A DNA stretch of 64,000 bases from Mycolicibacillus parakoreensis (GTDB taxonomy: Bacteria > Actinomycetota > Actinomycetes > Mycobacteriales > Mycobacteriaceae): NCBI RefSeq assembly GCF_022370835.2, contig NZ_CP092365.1, positions 620,001 to 684,000 of the forward strand, written 5' to 3'. The translations under genes were made by a program, and so were the position numbers. Each line of letters starts with the position of its first letter. Position 1 is the stretch's first letter. Under the pieces are notes generated by a model, which saw only the letters and a list, made by a program, of their open reading frames with translations, was not told the DNA's origin and made no database searches. Below, in pieces: positions 1 through 9,681 of this stretch.

Positions 1-354
1 CACCGCGGTGATCACGTGCACCGCGCGGTGCGGGGTCATGGTGCCGGCCCGGATGGCGGCGTCGGCGTCGGTGCCGTCGACCAGTTGCATCGCGATCCAC
101 AGCTGGCCCTCCGGGGTCTCCCCACGGTCGTAGATCGACACGATGTTCGGGTGATCCAGCCCGGACGCGACGTCGGCCTCCCGGATGAACCGGGCCCGAA
201 ATTTGGTGTCGGCGGAGAGCTCCGCGGAGAGCACCTTCAAGGCGTCCAGGCGTGGCAACTGCGGGTCGTCGACGGCGTAGATGGTGCCCATGCCCCCGGA
301 ACCGACGATGCGGCGCACCCGGTAGCCGGCCACCATCGAACCGATCGGGATCAT
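1..354 (-). CDS. Ser/Thr protein kinase, N-terminal part only (cut by left edge)
   Basis: This is the first 118 residues of a receptor-type Ser/Thr kinase of the PknF/PknI kind. Seen: glycine loop GSGGMG, the VAIK-like segment [10 protein letters not shown] with the ATP-binding lysine, and [12 protein letters not shown] followed by [12 protein letters not shown]. The HRD and DFG motifs lie beyond the window. The ATG at 354 is the only usable start, because an in-frame stop lies at 427-429 with no ATG, GTG or TTG between. It is the last visible gene of a minus-strand operon, 95 bp after the DUF4333-type gene. Its kinase domain closely resembles that of the gene at 2329-4245, which suggests local duplication. 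What follows the kinase domain cannot be told. Confidence 0.9.
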
Positions 355-449: not shown

Positions 450-1034
450 TCAGCTGGGGCTGCCGACCCAGTAGGACCCCTCCTCGTCGGCGAAGGTGAC
501 CTCGACGGTGCGTTTGGTTCCCGCGATGGTCGCCTCGCAGGTGAACGTGGCGTCGGCCTTGATCGTCGGGTTCTTCCCGTCGTTGCACCGCACATCGGTC
601 ACGTCGGAGGCACCGTAGCCGGTGGTGGGGTCGGTGAGAACCTGGCGCACCCCGTCCTCGGCGGCGTGCACGTCGAGTTCGGCGGTGCGCAGGAAACCCG
701 GCTTCCAGAAACCGGTCAGCGCCACCGCGAGCACGGCCACACCGAGCACCGACAGCAGCGCCGCGCGCAGCTTCGGACCGCCGAAACGGCCGCGGTTTCC
801 CGGCGGCGTGATCGCGGCGGTCGGTTCCCACCCCGGCGGCGGACCGGGGTGGCCCATCGGTGGGCCGGGCGGCGGATTCGGGGCGCCGTGGGCAGGCGGG
901 GGCGGCGGCTGGCCCTCCGGCGGGGGCCCCGGCTGCCAGGCCCGCGTCTCCGGCGGACGGTTCGGTTGGCCCTGCGGCGGGGGTGTCGGCCGCCAACCCT
1001 GCGTCGGCGGCGGCGAGTGCGGTGGTTCGCTCAT
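450..1034 (-). CDS. Proline-rich membrane-anchored protein with DUF4333-type domain
   Basis: A 194-residue protein in three parts. Residues 1 to about 85 are a cytoplasmic Pro/Gly-rich tail. One transmembrane helix follows at roughly 92-110 (ALLSVLGVAVLAVALTGF). The last 80 residues form an extracytoplasmic domain with two cysteines (DVRCND, FTCEA), the pattern of mycobacterial DUF4333 proteins. The function of that family is unknown to me. The gene starts 19 bp after the lipoprotein gene at 1054-2325 and precedes the truncated kinase, so it probably belongs to the same transcript. Its Pro-rich tail resembles the juxtamembrane linkers of mycobacterial kinases, so it could be a partner or substrate; that is inference. 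Confidence 0.85.
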   Translation of the reverse strand: MSEPPHSPPPTQGWRPTPPPQGQPNRPPETRAWQPGPPPEGQPPPPPAHGAPNPPPGPPMGHPGPPPGWEPTAAITPPGNRGRFGGPKLRAALLSVLGVAVLAVALTGFWKPGFLRTAELDVHAAEDGVRQVLTDPTTGYGASDVTDVRCNDGKNPTIKADATFTCEATIAGTKRTVEVTFADEEGSYWVGSPS

Positions 1035-1053: not shown

Positions 1054-2325
1054 TCACTCGGCTGTGAGCATCAGGTATTGGGCGGCTGCTTGTTGGTACA
1101 CGGCGTCCTTCTGGGACGAGGCGACGTCGATAGCGTAGCGATCGGCGGTCAACAGGCAGCTGTAGTGGCTGCGGGAGTAGTCGCTGCCCGGGGAGGTCAC
1201 CGTTTTGAAGCAGTGCGAATCGGGCAGGCCGGGAACGCCGTCGATGGAATCCCAGTCCTCGCCGCGAATCTCCGTCCACGCCGAGACGATCTGATCGGCC
1301 CCGGCCGCATCACGGGCGCGGTACACATCGGTGCCGGCCAGCGCGATCAGGTCCACCCCGGCGTCGGTGAGCAGCTTCTCGTCGCCGGCCGGGTCATCGG
1401 AGTACGCCAGGAAGCCGTGGACGCCGTAGAGCCCGAAGCGGAACCGGCCCCGCTCGTCGACCGGGGGTTCCACTGTTCGCGCCAGCAGCCCGTCGGGATC
1501 CAGTTGCAGGTCGGCGATCTCATCGACCGGGGTGGGGGTGAACCGGTCGATCAGGGGGATCTGTTTGTCCAGGGCGTCGGCCACCAGGTTGATCGCATCG
1601 TCGGAGCCCGTTTTGGAGTAGGACTCCTGGGCAAGCAGATACGGGCCGTGCGCGGTGTAGGCCGCCACCGTGAACGATTCCGACGGCCCCCAGGTGATCG
1701 CCCGGGTCTCGGCGTGGCGCGGAATGCTGGTCGGAGTGGAGTCGGGGGCGGTGTTGTCGGGATATTTGGTGGGATCGGGACCGCCGTTGGTGCCGAGTTC
1801 GGCCGCGGCCGCGGCCGCGGCCTCCGGTGTCGCGTAGCGCAGCACCGCGTTGTGCAGGTTGGGCGTGGTGTCGCTGGTGTGTTCGCGGCTGGTCATGAAG
1901 CCGGTCACGTAGTCGCGGCCGGCGGCCTCGGGGAAGACGGTGTCGAAGATCACGCCGACCGCGTCGGCGCCCTTGAACGGGCCGTTGAAGGTGCCGATCT
2001 TGCCGAGCCCGCCGGTCAGGTCGGGGTCGACCTCGAAGGGCATCGTCACGAAGTCGCTCATCCGCCGCGCCTCGACATAGGGACCGGCTTTCGGCCCGGC
2101 CTTGCCCCCGGTCGGACGCGGCGCGGTGGGGTAGTTGCCGGGATTCAGGTCCGAGGCGTCCGCGGACGGGGGAGCTTTCGACGCGCCGCCGTGCACGGTG
2201 GTCGAGCATCCGAGTGTCGCCGCGGCGACGAGACCGGCCAGCGACAGTGCGGTCAGCGCGCCGCGGCCGGCGAACACGATCCTGCGGCGGGGTGCACGGG
2301 GAGAAACGGTCACGGTTTCGGTCAT
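1054..2325 (-). CDS. Predicted lipoprotein, paralogue of the gene at 4283-5503
   Basis: A 423-residue exported protein. The signal has a long positively charged start, a hydrophobic stretch and a cysteine at residue 40 (AATLGC), a slightly irregular lipobox. It shares with the 4283-5503 product the blocks VEARRM, YTAHGPY, TPVDE, YG-HG, DRYA and the ending AAQY-MLTA, so the two are diverged paralogues. I believe this is the large mycobacterial DUF7373-type lipoprotein family, with no known biochemical role; that assignment is from memory. The ATG is 3 bp after the stop of the kinase gene at 2329-4245, so translation is probably coupled. A surface partner of the kinase ectodomain is a reasonable inference. 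Confidence 0.88.
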   Translation of the reverse strand: MTETVTVSPRAPRRRIVFAGRGALTALSLAGLVAAATLGCSTTVHGGASKAPPSADASDLNPGNYPTAPRPTGGKAGPKAGPYVEARRMSDFVTMPFEVDPDLTGGLGKIGTFNGPFKGADAVGVIFDTVFPEAAGRDYVTGFMTSREHTSDTTPNLHNAVLRYATPEAAAAAAAELGTNGGPDPTKYPDNTAPDSTPTSIPRHAETRAITWGPSESFTVAAYTAHGPYLLAQESYSKTGSDDAINLVADALDKQIPLIDRFTPTPVDEIADLQLDPDGLLARTVEPPVDERGRFRFGLYGVHGFLAYSDDPAGDEKLLTDAGVDLIALAGTDVYRARDAAGADQIVSAWTEIRGEDWDSIDGVPGLPDSHCFKTVTSPGSDYSRSHYSCLLTADRYAIDVASSQKDAVYQQAAAQYLMLTAE

Positions 2326-2328
2326 GGG

Positions 2329-4245
2329 TCAGCTCAGTTCGTCTGTCACGGTGGGCAGCAGCGTGTCGTTGAGGTACCGGGTGGCGGCGGGCCCGCCACT
2401 GTTCAGCGCCGCGATGGTGTCGGGGTCGTCGACGATGATGACGGTGCCGCTGAAATTCTCCAGCGTGCTGGGCAGACCGAAGAATCCTCCCGATCCCGCG
2501 TCGGCGTCGGTCCGCATCACCAGCGCCAGCGTGCTGCGGTACTGATACATGCCGTCCTGGGGCACCGGTTTTTGTTCCGCGCCGTCGGCCCCGCTCTGCA
2601 TCTTCGGGTTGTAGGTCAGGCCCACGCTGCTCAGATAGCTGGCCGCCGGGGAGTTCGACAGCAGCGCGGTGATCCCGTCGTCGGAGAAGCCGAACACCGA
2701 TATCGAGGGCCCGGTCAGCTTCGGGTTCTCCGCCCGGATCTTGTCCTGGTCGGTTTTGAGCTGTGCGCGCACCTCGTCGGCGGGCCCCTGCTCACCCAGG
2801 ACGCTGGCCAGCCAGGACAGCCGCAGGTCGGCGCCGAGTCCCTTGCCGGCGTTGGTCGGGCGGGTGACGGTCGGCGCCACCTCGGCGAGTTGGTCGTACT
2901 GGGTTTTGTTGAGGTCACCGGTATCGATGATGAGATCCGGTGTCACCTCGTCGAGGGCCTTCGCGTCGGGACCGGCCAGCACCTTCGGGTCGCCGTCGAT
3001 CAGATCGGCGAGCCACTCCGGTGGAGCATCGCCGCCGGGGCTGACCAGCGCGATCGGCTGGACCCCGAGCGACAGCGCGACGTCGGCATCGGCGAGGGTC
3101 AGGGCGGCCACCGCGTGGGGGCGATGGTCGAGTTGGGTGGAGCCGAACGTGTGGTTGAACGACTGGGCCGGATACGGCGGTTTGCCGGTTCCGGAGTTCC
3201 CGGTGACCAAGACGATCGCCAACAGGGCGACCGCGGCCAGGACACCGGCACCGAGCAGCCAGGCGTTGCGCCGGTTGGTGCGGGCCTTCGACAGTTTGGC
3301 GACCGCGCCGCTGAACCTCCCGCTGGGGTAGGTCACCGGTTCACCGCCGGATCCCGACAGCGCCGTCGTCGCCGCATCGGGCACCGGCTGCGCGGGGTAC
3401 TGGTTGTGCCGCAGGGCGGCCTGGGCGGCCTCGAACAGCTGGCGGGCGGTGTCGAACCGGGCCGCCGGATCCTTGGCCAGCGCGATCGCCAGCACGGCGT
3501 CGATCGCCGGGGGCAGCTGCGGCGCGAAACCGGTGACCGGGGGCGCGGGCCGGCTCAGATGCGCCATCATGATCGCCGACATGGTTCCCGCATCCTGGAA
3601 AGGGCTGCGGCCGGCCAGCATTCGGTACAGGGCACAGCCCAGGGAGTACAGGTCGGAGCGGTGATCGACCGGGCGACCCTCGATCGCCTCGGGGGAGGCG
3701 TAGGCGACGGTGGCCATCATCGACCCGGTGGCGGTCAGCCGGGTGGCCTCCTCCACGGCGCGGGCAATGCCGAAGTCGGCCAACAACACCCGTTCGTGCG
3801 GGCCGGGCTCCCCGGTCAGCAGGAAGTTGGCGGGTTTGATGTCGCGGTGCAACAACCGGCGGGAGTGGGCGAAATCCAGCGCCTTGGCGACCTCGCCGAC
3901 GATGTGCAGCGTGCGTTCCACCGGGATCGGACCCTGATCGGCCAACGCGCCCGCATCGGTGCCGTCGATGAACTGCATCGCGATCCACAGCCGGCCGTCC
4001 TCGGCCTCGCCGCGGGTGTAGACCCGCACGATGTTGGGGTGCTCCAGGCTGGCCGCCAGATCCGCTTCGCGGCGGAACCGGGCCCGAAACTCGGGGTCGG
4101 CGGAGAGCTCGGCGGAGAGCACCTTGAGTGCGACACTGCGGGGCAGGGTCGGGTGGCGCGCCAGATACACCGTGCCCATCCCGCCGGCGCCGAGCACCCG
4201 CTCAATGGTGTATCCGGATACCTGGGCTCCGGCGGGCATGGTCAT
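2329..4245 (-). CDS. Receptor Ser/Thr kinase fused to a FecB-like binding-protein ectodomain
   Basis: A 638-residue transmembrane kinase. Residues 12-280 form a complete Hanks-type domain: glycine loop GAGGMG, Lys41 (VALKVL), HRD at 132-134 with DIKPAN, DFG at 156-158, and APE-like ASPEA at 182-186. A linker leads to one transmembrane helix at about 327-347. Residues about 350-638 look like a class III periplasmic binding protein of the FecB/FeuA/TroA type: DVALSLGVQPIALV, LDEVTPDLIIDTGD, and a late FSGTVIIVDD segment. This is not the usual PASTA, beta-propeller or PknH ectodomain. The gene lies between two paralogous lipoproteins, 37 bp after one and 3 bp before the other. The likely role is phosphorylation in response to a small ligand outside the membrane. 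The ligand cannot be read from sequence. A start at 4239 is also possible. Confidence 0.9.
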   Translation of the reverse strand: MTMPAGAQVSGYTIERVLGAGGMGTVYLARHPTLPRSVALKVLSAELSADPEFRARFRREADLAASLEHPNIVRVYTRGEAEDGRLWIAMQFIDGTDAGALADQGPIPVERTLHIVGEVAKALDFAHSRRLLHRDIKPANFLLTGEPGPHERVLLADFGIARAVEEATRLTATGSMMATVAYASPEAIEGRPVDHRSDLYSLGCALYRMLAGRSPFQDAGTMSAIMMAHLSRPAPPVTGFAPQLPPAIDAVLAIALAKDPAARFDTARQLFEAAQAALRHNQYPAQPVPDAATTALSGSGGEPVTYPSGRFSGAVAKLSKARTNRRNAWLLGAGVLAAVALLAIVLVTGNSGTGKPPYPAQSFNHTFGSTQLDHRPHAVAALTLADADVALSLGVQPIALVSPGGDAPPEWLADLIDGDPKVLAGPDAKALDEVTPDLIIDTGDLNKTQYDQLAEVAPTVTRPTNAGKGLGADLRLSWLASVLGEQGPADEVRAQLKTDQDKIRAENPKLTGPSISVFGFSDDGITALLSNSPAASYLSSVGLTYNPKMQSGADGAEQKPVPQDGMYQYRSTLALVMRTDADAGSGGFFGLPSTLENFSGTVIIVDDPDTIAALNSGGPAATRYLNDTLLPTVTDELS

Positions 4246-4282: not shown

Positions 4283-5503
4283 TCATTTCGCGGTCAGCAT
4301 CACGTACTGGGCGGCCAGAGCGCGGCGAGCCTCCAGCGAACTCGGGCCGGCGGCCTCGACCGCGTAGCGGTCCACGTGGACCACACAGCGAAACGCCGGG
4401 TGGAACGACTCGTCGCCGGGTTTCAGGCAGCGCGCCGCCGGCATGCCGCTGACGGGCTCGTCGGGGCTGTAGGTGGGGTACTTCTGCTCGCCGATCTCGG
4501 CCACGATGTCGTCGGCGACCTCGGCGGCGGCCGTCGAATCGCGGGTCTCGTAGACGATGGCGAATCCGCGCGAGAGGTTGGTCAGCCCGGTGTCATCGAA
4601 GAGTTTCTGCGCCCGCAGCGGGTTGATCATGAAATGCAGGGCCCCGTGCGCACCGTAGACCCCCGCCGACGCGGCGTTCGATGCGTCCTTGGGGACCGGC
4701 AGGGTTCGTGCCTGCAGCCCGGTGGGGTCCAGCGGCATGGAGGCCAGTTCGTCGACCGGGGTCGCCTGGAAACCATCGAGGGCCGGGCCCTGCTTGTCGA
4801 CGCTGGCCACCGCCAGCGCCACGGCGCCGTCGAGGTCGTCACCGCTGATCATGTCGGCGATCACGTACGGACCGTGGGCGGTGTAGGTGAGCAGGCCCCG
4901 AAAATCACCGCCCTCTTTCGCGTCGCGGAAGGCCCGGATGTCGGGGTGATCGGCGATGGGGTGGGGGCTTCGGGTGTAGCTGGACCCCGCCGGGACCGTC
5001 TCGCTGTGCTCGGCGAAGTCTTTGGCGGCGTCGGTGGCGTCTTGGGGGCTGGCGAAGCGCATCACGATATGGGTGAACTCCAGAAACGTCAGATCCGTCG
5101 CCTTGCGGCCGGTCAAAAACCCGGCCACGAAATTGTGTTTGCCGGCCACCGCGGGGATCGCAGGATTGTCGTACAAGACCGACGAGAGACTCCCCGGATT
5201 GCCGAACGGGGTGGGCGATTTGCCCGAGTCCAACAGCCGGGCGTCGATCTCGGACGGCACCAGCACCGCGTCGGCCATCCGGCGGGCCTCGACCAGGGCG
5301 CCGGCGTCACGGCTGGTGGCGTTGCCCAGCGGTTCGCTCGGTTTGGTGGCGAAATCACCGGTGTCGAGCAGCCCGGCGTTGACCGCGTCGGGGTCGGCGT
5401 GCGGGTCACGGACCCCCACGCCGGTGTAGACGGTGGTGCACCCGGTGAGCACAACCAGCGATACCGCCACGCTGACCGCGGCGCGCGCTCTCTTCGCCCT
5501 CAC
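4283..5503 (-). CDS. Predicted lipoprotein, first gene of the kinase operon
   Basis: A 406-residue exported lipoprotein with a clear signal: Arg/Lys-rich start, hydrophobic core, and lipobox VVLTGC with cysteine 22. The mature part is the paralogue of the 1054-2325 product (shared VEARRM, YTAHGPY, TPVDE, DRYAVE and terminal AAQYVMLTAK). The start is GTG at 5503, with AGAGGA about 5 bases upstream. It is the promoter-proximal gene of a minus-strand operon that continues into the FecB-kinase 37 bp later. The family function is unknown. Two paralogues on either side of one sensor kinase suggest a co-receptor or ligand-delivery role, which is inference. Confidence 0.88.
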   Translation of the reverse strand: MRAKRARAAVSVAVSLVVLTGCTTVYTGVGVRDPHADPDAVNAGLLDTGDFATKPSEPLGNATSRDAGALVEARRMADAVLVPSEIDARLLDSGKSPTPFGNPGSLSSVLYDNPAIPAVAGKHNFVAGFLTGRKATDLTFLEFTHIVMRFASPQDATDAAKDFAEHSETVPAGSSYTRSPHPIADHPDIRAFRDAKEGGDFRGLLTYTAHGPYVIADMISGDDLDGAVALAVASVDKQGPALDGFQATPVDELASMPLDPTGLQARTLPVPKDASNAASAGVYGAHGALHFMINPLRAQKLFDDTGLTNLSRGFAIVYETRDSTAAAEVADDIVAEIGEQKYPTYSPDEPVSGMPAARCLKPGDESFHPAFRCVVHVDRYAVEAAGPSSLEARRALAAQYVMLTAK

Positions 5504-5873: not shown

Positions 5874-7355
5874 ATGGGCTCGACCACACCGACACGGGCC
5901 GGCACCCGGTTCGGCAAGTATCGGCTCGTCCGGCTGCTGGGACGCGGCGGGATGGGTGAGGTCTACGAGGCGGTCGACACCGAGAAGGGCCGCACGGTCG
6001 CGCTGAAGATCCTGCTGGAGGACTACTCCGCCGACCAGGACTACCGGCGCCGGTTCACCCGCGAGGCCCATGCCGCCGCCCAGCTGGCCGAGCCGCACGT
6101 CATCCCGATCCACGACTGGGGCGAGATCGACACCCGGCTCTACATCGACATGCGGTTGGTCCACGGCGACAATCTGCGTGACGTGCTCGCCGCCGGGCCG
6201 CTGGAACCGGCCCGGGCGGTCGCGGTCTGCACCCAGGTCGCCGAGGCGCTCGACGCCGCCCACGCCGGCGGGGTCATCCACCGCGACGTCAAACCGGAGA
6301 ACATCATCGTCGCCGACGGCGATTTCGCCTACCTGCTCGACTTCGGGATCGCCGAGCAGGCCGGGGAGACGCGGCTGACCAAGGCGGGGATGACGGTCGG
6401 CTCCCTGGCCTACCTGGCGCCGGAACGTCTCGGCGGCGGCGCCGCCACCGCCTCGGTCGACGTCTACGGGTTGGCCTGTGTGTTGTTCGAATGCCTGACC
6501 GGCCGCCAACCGTTCCTCGCCGACACCCTGGCCCAGGTGATGACCGAGCATCTCTACGCGCCGCCGCCGGCGCCGAGCGCGGTCGTCGCGGCGGTCCCGA
6601 CCGCCTTCGACGCGGTGATCGCCCGCGGGATGGCCAAGCAACCCGACGACCGCTACGGCAGTGCCGGGGCGCTGGTGCGCGCCGCCGCCCGCGCCCTGTC
6701 CCCACCGGCGCGGTCGGCGGCGCAGAGCGCCTACCCCACCATGGCCGCCGCCCACGTCCAGGCCGCCACCGAGGTGCGGGGTGCGGTCGCCGCGCCGCCG
6801 CCCGCCGCGCCGCCGGTGCCCGCGGGCCCGCCGGGCTGGCTGCTGCCGACGTTGATCGCCGCGGGTGTGGTGGTGCTGGCCGCCGTCGGCATCACCCTCG
6901 GTGTGCTCATCGGCCAGAGCTCCACCCCGCAGTCCACGGCACCACCGTCGTCGCCACGGCTGAGTCCGTCACCGCCGATGCAGCCGGCACCGACGCTCGA
7001 GACCACCCGCGCCCCGGTCTTGCCGCCGGCAGTCCACGGTCCCGATACGCTCGGTGCGTCCTGCGACACCGGGTTCGTCCACGGGGCCGGTGACGTCTTC
7101 GGCAGCCACGCGTTGCGCGGCTCGGCGGAGACCAGCTGCGTGTTCACCCGCAACGTGTTGGCGGCCTACTGGCGGGCGGGCCCGGCCACCGAAACCTCGC
7201 GGGAGATCGCGGCACCCGGTTCGCGCCCGTGCGGCGAGAGCGGCGACACCGCATGCACCCGTGACGGCGAATTCGTCATGCGCTGTGCGGTGCGCGGCAC
7301 CGACGACTGGATCACCTGCGAAGGCGGCAACAACGCGCGTGTCTACCTCTATTAG
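5874..7355 (+). CDS. PknE-like receptor Ser/Thr kinase with a six-cysteine ectodomain
   Basis: A 493-residue membrane kinase. Kinase domain at about 16-285: GRGGMG loop, Lys45 (VALKIL), HRD at 136-138 with DVKPEN, DFG at 156-158, and LAPE at the end of the activation loop. The wording of this domain (EPHVIPIHDWGE, FAYLLDFGIA) resembles M. tuberculosis PknE. A Pro/Ala-rich linker leads to one transmembrane helix near 324-347. The outer part of about 140 residues is Ser/Pro-rich, then has six cysteines (GASC, TSCVF, RPCGE, TACT, MRCAV, ITCEG). It does not look like PknE's thioredoxin-like ectodomain. GAGGGGGTGG lies just before the ATG. The stop overlaps the next gene by 17 bp. A role in envelope or redox sensing is inferred from the paired cysteines and the neighbours. 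Confidence 0.9.
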   Translation: MGSTTPTRAGTRFGKYRLVRLLGRGGMGEVYEAVDTEKGRTVALKILLEDYSADQDYRRRFTREAHAAAQLAEPHVIPIHDWGEIDTRLYIDMRLVHGDNLRDVLAAGPLEPARAVAVCTQVAEALDAAHAGGVIHRDVKPENIIVADGDFAYLLDFGIAEQAGETRLTKAGMTVGSLAYLAPERLGGGAATASVDVYGLACVLFECLTGRQPFLADTLAQVMTEHLYAPPPAPSAVVAAVPTAFDAVIARGMAKQPDDRYGSAGALVRAAARALSPPARSAAQSAYPTMAAAHVQAATEVRGAVAAPPPAAPPVPAGPPGWLLPTLIAAGVVVLAAVGITLGVLIGQSSTPQSTAPPSSPRLSPSPPMQPAPTLETTRAPVLPPAVHGPDTLGASCDTGFVHGAGDVFGSHALRGSAETSCVFTRNVLAAYWRAGPATETSREIAAPGSRPCGESGDTACTRDGEFVMRCAVRGTDDWITCEGGNNARVYLY

Positions 7356-8364: not shown

Positions 8365-9681
8365 ATGCTCACCGTAGTTCACGACGCCGAGGACGCCAAC
8401 GGCCACGAGGCCTCTGGGCGCTCGTTGTTGGACGAGATCGTCCGCGACGGTGCCCGGCAAATGCTGGCCGCGGCGTTGCAGGCCGAGGTCGCCGCGTATG
8501 TGGCCCAGTACGCCGATCAGCTCGACGACAACGGGCACCGGCTGGTGGTGCGCAACGGCTACCACCAGCCACGTGAGGTGTTGACCGCAGCCGGTGCGGT
8601 GCAGGTGAAAGCTCCACGAGTCAACGACAAACGCGTCGACCCCGACACTGGTGAGCGGAAACGGTTTTCCTCGGCGATCCTGCCGGCGTGGGCGCGCAAG
8701 TCACCGCAGATGAGCGAGGTGCTGCCGCTTTTGTATCTGCACGGGCTGTCGACCAGTGATTTCGGGCCGGCCCTGGAGCAGTTTCTGGGCTCGGGTGCCG
8801 GGTTGTCGGCCACCACGATCACCCGGCTGACCAGTCAGTGGCAAGATGAGGCCCGCGCGTTCGCCGCCCGGGACCTGTCGGGCACCGATTACGTCTACCT
8901 GTGGGTGGACGGCATCCACCTCAAGGTCCGCCTGGACCAGGAAAAGCTGTGCTTGCTGGTGATGCTGGGTGTGCGCGCTGACGGCCGCAAAGAACTGGTG
9001 GCGATCACCGACGGCTACCGCGAATCGACCGAGTCGTGGGCTGATCTGCTGCGCGACTGCAAGCGACGCGGCATGACCGCCCCGGTGCTCGCGGTCGGCG
9101 ATGGCGCACTCGGGTTCTGGAACGCGGTGCGTGAGGTGTTCCCGGCCACCAAAGAGCAGCGGTGCTGGTTTCATAAGCAGGCTAATGTTCTTGCCGCGCT
9201 GCCGAAATCAGCGCACCCGTCGGCGTTGGCGGCGATCAAGGAGATCTACAACGCCGAGGATATCGACAAGGCCCAGCTCGCGGTCAAAGCCTTCGAGGTC
9301 GACTTCGGGGCCAAGTATCCTAAAGCGGTCGCCAAGATCACCGACGATCTGGACACCCTGCTGGAGTTCTACCACTACCCGGCCGAACATTGGATTCACC
9401 TACGCACCACGAATCCGATCGAAAGCACCTTCGCCACAGTGCGTTTGCGCACCAAGGTCACCAAAGGCCCGGGATCACGCGCGGCCGGACTGGCTATGGC
9501 CTACAAGCTCATCGACGCCGCCGCGGCCCGCTGGCGCGCCGTCAACGCCCCACACCTGGTCGCTTTGGTCCGCGCCGGCGCGGTCTTCCACAAGGGAAAG
9601 CTGCTCGAACGCCCCACCGAGATCACCCCAACACAGCCGCCCACCGACGGCGCCGAACAACCCGGAACGGAGGTCGCCTGA
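8365..9681 (+). CDS. IS256-family transposase
   Basis: A 438-residue mutator-type DDE transposase, intact with no frameshift. Catalytic residues visible in context: first Asp in YLWVDGIHLKV, second Asp in LAVGDGALGFW, and Glu in TTNPIESTFATVRLRT, with the CWFHK segment typical of the family between them. It catalyses cut or copy-out transposition of the surrounding element. The N-terminal residues resemble other mycobacterial IS256 members, but I do not assign a named IS. The start overlaps the hairpin described at 8280-8364. The intact frame and preserved ends suggest recent activity. Confidence 0.95.
   Translation: MLTVVHDAEDANGHEASGRSLLDEIVRDGARQMLAAALQAEVAAYVAQYADQLDDNGHRLVVRNGYHQPREVLTAAGAVQVKAPRVNDKRVDPDTGERKRFSSAILPAWARKSPQMSEVLPLLYLHGLSTSDFGPALEQFLGSGAGLSATTITRLTSQWQDEARAFAARDLSGTDYVYLWVDGIHLKVRLDQEKLCLLVMLGVRADGRKELVAITDGYRESTESWADLLRDCKRRGMTAPVLAVGDGALGFWNAVREVFPATKEQRCWFHKQANVLAALPKSAHPSALAAIKEIYNAEDIDKAQLAVKAFEVDFGAKYPKAVAKITDDLDTLLEFYHYPAEHWIHLRTTNPIESTFATVRLRTKVTKGPGSRAAGLAMAYKLIDAAAARWRAVNAPHLVALVRAGAVFHKGKLLERPTEITPTQPPTDGAEQPGTEVA

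Follow-up and report, generated by a model that had tools for sequence, protein, structure and literature searches.

A likely receptor-kinase family of mycobacteria and Tsukamurella with a class III substrate-binding-protein ectodomain

The window analyzed here, a 64,000-nucleotide stretch of DNA from Mycolicibacillus parakoreensis (contig NZ_CP092365.1, positions 620,001 to 684,000), codes on its minus strand for a serine/threonine (Ser/Thr) kinase in which a single predicted membrane helix joins the catalytic domain to an ectodomain with the predicted fold of a class III substrate-binding protein. We propose that this protein is likely a receptor, in which the binding of a ligand or partner outside the cell would lead to phosphorylation inside it. 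On the sequence record, the kinase/class III fusion is a widespread family and not a one-off. The gene and its domains are laid out as follows:

2329..4245, minus strand: predicted Ser/Thr receptor kinase with a class III binding-protein ectodomain, 638 residues (open frame, ATG start, Pfam)
3439..4212, minus strand: kinase domain, residues 12-269, with K41, HRD at 133-135 and DFG at 157-159 (Pfam Pkinase, expectation value (E) 8.6e-44)
3202..3261, minus strand: single predicted membrane helix, residues about 329-348, in a hydrophobic stretch of about 327-350 (hydropathy maximum 2.7 over 19 residues)
2332..3192, minus strand: ectodomain, residues 352-638, predicted class III substrate-binding-protein fold (AlphaFold2, Foldseek, VIA-align, Peripla_BP_2)

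By motif reading, the catalytic lysine, HRD and DFG are all present in the kinase domain. The original prediction, made from the letters of the stretch, had placed Lys41 correctly and had recognized the other two motifs, though numbering each one residue too early (132-134 and 156-158); it gave no strand for the frame, which lies on the minus strand. The one membrane helix that it expected corresponds to the sole strong hydrophobic stretch, which separates the kinase from the ectodomain. It had further likened about 290 outer residues to a class III binding protein, and both structure prediction and profile search bear this out. Modeled alone with AlphaFold2, residues 352-638 adopt a periplasmic-binding-protein fold (predicted local distance difference test 92.5; predicted template-modeling score 0.89) in which a long helix connects two alpha/beta lobes, the topology expected of class III. 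The structural matches listed by Foldseek and VIA-align are, by title, class III binding proteins for siderophores, heme or ferric citrate. Comparisons restricted to sequence likewise recover SirA (5e-11) and PiaA (3e-8), and the Pfam model Peripla_BP_2 (PF01497) matches residues 430-559 above its curated cut-off (31.6 versus 27.5 bits; E 1.5e-7) and 20 of the 21 members of alignment A1 at E 0.001.

The original prediction had also called for a search for other kinases with the same fusion, and these were found in the window's genus and in Tsukamurella. A search of 5.8 billion proteins, with 7992 candidates scored, returned 20 relatives besides the window's own protein, all at E 2.4e-44 or better, among them proteins of Mycolicibacillus trivialis, M. 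koreensis and Mycobacterium sp. 1274756.6. In the precomputed Pfam column, 19 of these 20 carry a kinase and 16 carry PF01497; the one relative without a kinase there is an incomplete M. marinum entry beginning inside the kinase. At the level of genomes (one per species), the ectodomain is matched at E 1e-20 or better in 85 of 396 from the window's genus, and a kinase stands in the same frame at 39 distinct loci, the window included; left out of these counts were G015 and G072 (frame breaks), G182 (contig end), pieces shorter than 240 residues and near-copies. Many species carry relatives with the same layout, and the fusion is therefore neither chance nor misassembly. In Tsukamurella, recognized by the names that identical or almost identical proteins bear and counted as 16 genomes by genus label, all 16 match both parts of the query, which comprised the ectodomain and the later part of the kinase. 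G762 has these parts in different frames, and 15 of the 16 loci were used in the counts.

A profile built on the fused ectodomains sets them off sharply from other proteins. It gave, in the family search, 29 matches of at least 291 bits (13 from the window's genus and 16 from Tsukamurella), the best other match reaching 152, and among 396 phylum genomes only two scored above 142 bits, both from the window's genus. No kinase fusion outside the two genera was recognized among 397 order, 401 family and 396 phylum genomes, which are overlapping samples; these absences are soft, as the first look at family and phylum scored at most six candidates per genome and non-genus matches were mostly judged by score and frame length, with long frames such as G807, G1047 and G1189 left unfetched. 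Eight long non-genus frames from the order search were fetched, and only two, both of Tsukamurella, have a kinase; the 18 loci fetched from the phylum are all without one.

What sets the fused ectodomain apart from its free relatives is seen at the residues that serve transport. In the ferrichrome-binding protein PiaA, Glu119 and Glu262 were proposed as permease-docking residues, and the ferrichrome contacts include Trp63, Tyr225 and Arg231 (PMC3741162). A HMMER alignment, with the PiaA numbering offset derived by hand and consistent with Trp63, Asn83 and Tyr84, places Lys429 opposite Glu119, and Leu384, Leu528 and Ala534 opposite Trp63, Tyr225 and Arg231. Three sites in the gene are of particular concern:

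2959..2961, minus strand: codon for Lys429, equivalent of the PiaA docking Glu119 (HMMER alignment to PiaA and counts)
2554..2556, minus strand: codon for Asp564, aligned with the second docking Glu in MAFFT only (alignment counts)
2506..2514, minus strand: Arg578-Thr-Asp580, start of a motif seen only in the fused domains, with Arg and Asp invariant in all 54 (alignment counts)

We compared 54 fused domains with 28 free domains and a further 18 free domains from across the phylum. Two of the three free binding proteins of the window's own genome were used, the third, linked to FecCD, having no match to the ectodomain. The Glu119 column is Glu in none of the fused domains, in 25/28 free ones and in 17/18 of the further set; the second docking column is Glu in 2/54, 23/28 and 18/18, respectively. 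An equivalent of Arg231 is found in 24/28 and 16/18 of the two free sets and of Tyr225 in 20/28 and 13/18, and neither occurs in any fused domain. Trp63 is likewise absent from all 54 and present in 18/28; it is kept in just 3 of the further 18 and is therefore not general among free proteins either. These alignments show the ectodomain of the window protein to be without both permease-docking glutamates and the three PiaA ferrichrome contacts. The first docking Glu is also missing from a FecB-like protein of the window's genome that has no adjoining FecCD gene. In place of the lost residues, R578, D580, G586, G590 and P592 are each found in 54/54 fused domains. In the free sets of 28 and 18, whose columns around this stretch shift between the two alignments, R578 occurs in 0 and 0, D580 in 2 and 1, G586 in 0 and 1, and G590 in 2 and 2, with P592 being common. 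R578 lies at the end of a predicted strand of the model and probably faces the cleft.

The same residues bear on what the ectodomain does. Its fold is that of transport proteins, and it might be thought of as a binding protein anchored in the membrane and still delivering to an ATP-binding cassette (ABC) permease, with the kinase regulating uptake. We consider this very improbable, since both docking glutamates are lost, glutamate-arginine docking having been called indispensable in FecB, FhuD2 and FeuA (PMC3741162), and no FecCD permease gene is adjacent.

A receptor for iron-siderophores, or for heme or citrate, is what the original prediction proposed, and the titles of the close structural relatives listed, together with weak NCBIfam matches to ferric-citrate and enterobactin binding proteins that fall below the cut-off, speak for it. 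The proposal nevertheless finds no support in the residues, in the search for iron boxes or in the neighboring genes, and we regard it as unlikely. The PiaA Trp63, Tyr225 and Arg231 equivalents differ in all 54 fused domains, and the genome's single FecCD match lies at 2.95 Mb, against 0.62 Mb for the kinase. The neighbors scanned include complex-I/hydrogenase-like, transposase, peptidase, cyclase-like and aminotransferase genes, and none is an iron-transport or siderophore gene. Allowing up to 3 mismatches, a scan of the window with an IdeR-type consensus gives no box. Separately, the same pattern matched with 2 mismatches at L145:4180, within an ESX locus of the same genome. Iron control of the locus was rejected, the best IdeR-type sites in the kinase loci (5 to 8 mismatches) being no better than those of 10 shuffles (4 to 8). 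Iron-siderophores are thus a possible ligand that, judged by residues and neighbors, is not favored.

The gene stands in a compact minus-strand row, with gaps of 37, 3, 19 and 95 bases between a DUF7373 gene, the fused kinase, a second DUF7373 gene, a DUF4333 gene and a PknH-like kinase gene:

4283..5503, minus strand: DUF7373 protein whose start looks lipobox-like by eye, encoded 37 bases ahead of the kinase gene (Pfam PF24088/PF24092)
1054..2325, minus strand: second DUF7373 protein, its start likewise lipobox-like by eye, encoded 3 bases past the stop codon of the kinase (Pfam)
450..1034, minus strand: DUF4333 protein, 19 bases further downstream (Pfam PF14230)
1..354, minus strand: start of a PknH-like kinase with a PknH_C ectodomain, running out of the window (Pfam PF14032 on the whole gene; synteny)

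Loci L021, L022, L023 and L034 repeat this order, and L035 does so in part. All 11 longer loci (5 to 20 kb, including the frame-broken G015) have a DUF7373 gene no more than 500 bases from the kinase, on one side or both, and 13 of the 39 loci carry a same-strand DUF7373 gene within 1.5 kb downstream. DUF7373 has no relative in the PDB by sequence at E 1, and no paper under that name was found; beside kinases of the window's genus it is often multicopy. A further Ser/Thr kinase, with no recognized ectodomain, is divergent from the row (window 5874-7355, plus strand, Pfam). Beyond the row lie complex-I/hydrogenase-like genes on one side, a set that adjoins the PknH-like kinase (L033:76-6616, genome C1:612076-618616), and on the other side genes for a transposase, an M15 peptidase, two cyclase-like proteins and an aminotransferase, the transposase being of the Mutator family (window 8365-9681, plus strand, PF00872, E 1.3e-63). 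In locus L036, near its fused kinase, one protein (L036:12922-16365) has two FHA stretches together with an ABC transporter and ends in a PknH_C domain; it resembles Rv1747 plus PknH_C and is a possible target of the kinase. The same locus holds four additional PknH_C-like stretches.

The closeness of DUF7373 genes to the kinase in all 11 longer loci, taken with the loss of known ligand contacts, makes it quite possible that the ectodomain is a protein-binding scaffold, likely for the DUF7373 neighbors or another envelope protein, whose contact the kinase would report without any small molecule being bound. A class III protein in a complex has a precedent in PDB 9p3f, titled as Rv3035 (M. thermoresistible) with FecB (M. 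tuberculosis). Set against this, the invariance of R578, D580, G586, G590 and P592 in the fused domains of two genera suggests a conserved site, and seven Tsukamurella loci have no match to DUF7373, DUF4333 or PknH_C at E 1e-5; such a partner would therefore not be general.

The setting in Tsukamurella is a different one. In 6/7 longer loci (L121-L124, L126, L127) the kinase follows eccD, mycP and eccE of an ESX locus, these genes being assigned by Pfam on L121, L123 and L126 and by tblastn on the remaining loci; in L125 the kinase has no ESX neighbor, so the linkage is not universal. An iron reading by way of ESX-3 was dropped because T. paurometabola was assigned an ESX-4EVOL cluster, not the iron-linked ESX-3 (PMC4791881), which also counts against an iron receptor; moreover, no single ESX locus of the window's own genome stands out as the nearest relative of the Tsukamurella ESX genes. 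That the setting differs between the genera argues, weakly, for a general envelope signal over a dedicated iron system.

In a sensor tree, a single branch separates the domains of both genera from the 28 free proteins (Shimodaira-Hasegawa-like approximate likelihood-ratio test 94, the tool's mark being 95). The best kinase tree places the mycobacterial fused kinases among PknH-like and other mycobacterial kinases, apart from those of Tsukamurella; a single clade of fused kinases is not rejected (approximately unbiased test, p 0.284). The tree tool flagged long branches in both trees. Either an old fusion or a sensor that moved between kinases would fit these results.

Several of these points weigh against a receptor family of the kind we propose. 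As the kinase domains of the two genera are ungrouped in the best tree, the sensor may have moved between kinases, and 311 of the 396 genomes of the window's genus have no ectodomain match at E 1e-20. The residue counts come from related sequences and are not independent events; the position of the second docking Glu depends on a gapped region of the alignment, and the fused domains of L077 and L081 retain Glu there. Lastly, the loss of transport residues and of known ligand contacts would be equally compatible with an ectodomain to which small molecules do not bind. We thus put forward only tentatively the fuller picture of a distinct receptor-kinase family, in which a class III sensor came out of transport, shed its docking and siderophore contacts, and gained its own R-T-D...GGxxGLP site for a new class of envelope ligand, being housed in an ESX locus in Tsukamurella and in a DUF7373-PknH row in mycobacteria. 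In sequence terms, the loss of docking residues would illustrate a route from transport protein to sensor.

For the likely receptor itself, we envisage a cytoplasmic kinase and a binding-protein domain outside, the cleft of which would hold a small ligand or serve as a docking site for a partner, for instance the products of the two flanking DUF7373 genes. Binding would alter the pairing of two receptor molecules, and the kinases so paired would go on to phosphorylate one another on the activation loop, as well as their targets. By analogy with the behavior of the receptor kinase PknB, a trigger by changed pairing or partner docking seems likelier than flytrap closure, because class III proteins hardly move on binding: the movement in PiaA is 0.31 Å (PMC3741162). 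The stimuli that activate bacterial Ser/Thr kinases have been called an outstanding question (PMC6069109). A binding-protein ectodomain allows ligands to be sought by direct binding screens, and the family therefore makes this question testable.

We found no paper describing a kinase/class III fusion in the open-access literature. The wider idea of a kinase fused to a solute-binding sensor is already known for other binding-protein classes (PMC6069109, PMC1262709). In a table of PMC13293324, HTH_18 is the main domain found with Peripla_BP_2, and Pkinase is listed with SBP_bac_3, not with Peripla_BP_2. MSMEG_1200 (StpK7, NF052427) is a mycobacterial protein that likewise unites a Ser/Thr kinase and a solute-binding domain, as do 260 further InterPro entries (PMC6069109), which may include class III cases. 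Unlike the window protein, a scanned StpK7 member (L148) has SBP_bac_3, with no significant similarity to our ectodomain; the window protein scores 220.7 bits against the NF052427 cut-off of 900, without an SBP_bac_3 match at E 0.01, and StpK7 has no match in the window's own genome at E 1e-150. The PASTA kinases (NF033483) are similarly distant (294.3 versus 450 bits; no PASTA match at E 0.01). A Streptomyces coelicolor kinase and a Nostoc kinase also carry periplasmic binding domains, though of the Glu/Gln-type and ANF-receptor classes, respectively (PMC1262709). For PknG-GlnH-GlnX of mycobacteria, control of a Ser/Thr kinase by a solute-binding protein has been proposed, but in that system each of the three functions has its own protein, and the specificity of the binding protein is for aspartate and related amino acids (PMC6069109). 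PknH-type mycobacterial kinases are among the nearest relatives of the kinase domain, one being encoded in the same row, yet their ectodomain is PknH_C and not a binding protein. On the sensor side, PiaA is a separate protein of an ABC importer, whose ferrichrome contacts the window protein lacks, and the free class III relatives, unlike the fused ones, mostly keep the docking glutamates. Btr-type AraC regulators use a class III binding domain for regulation; they are transcription regulators rather than kinases.
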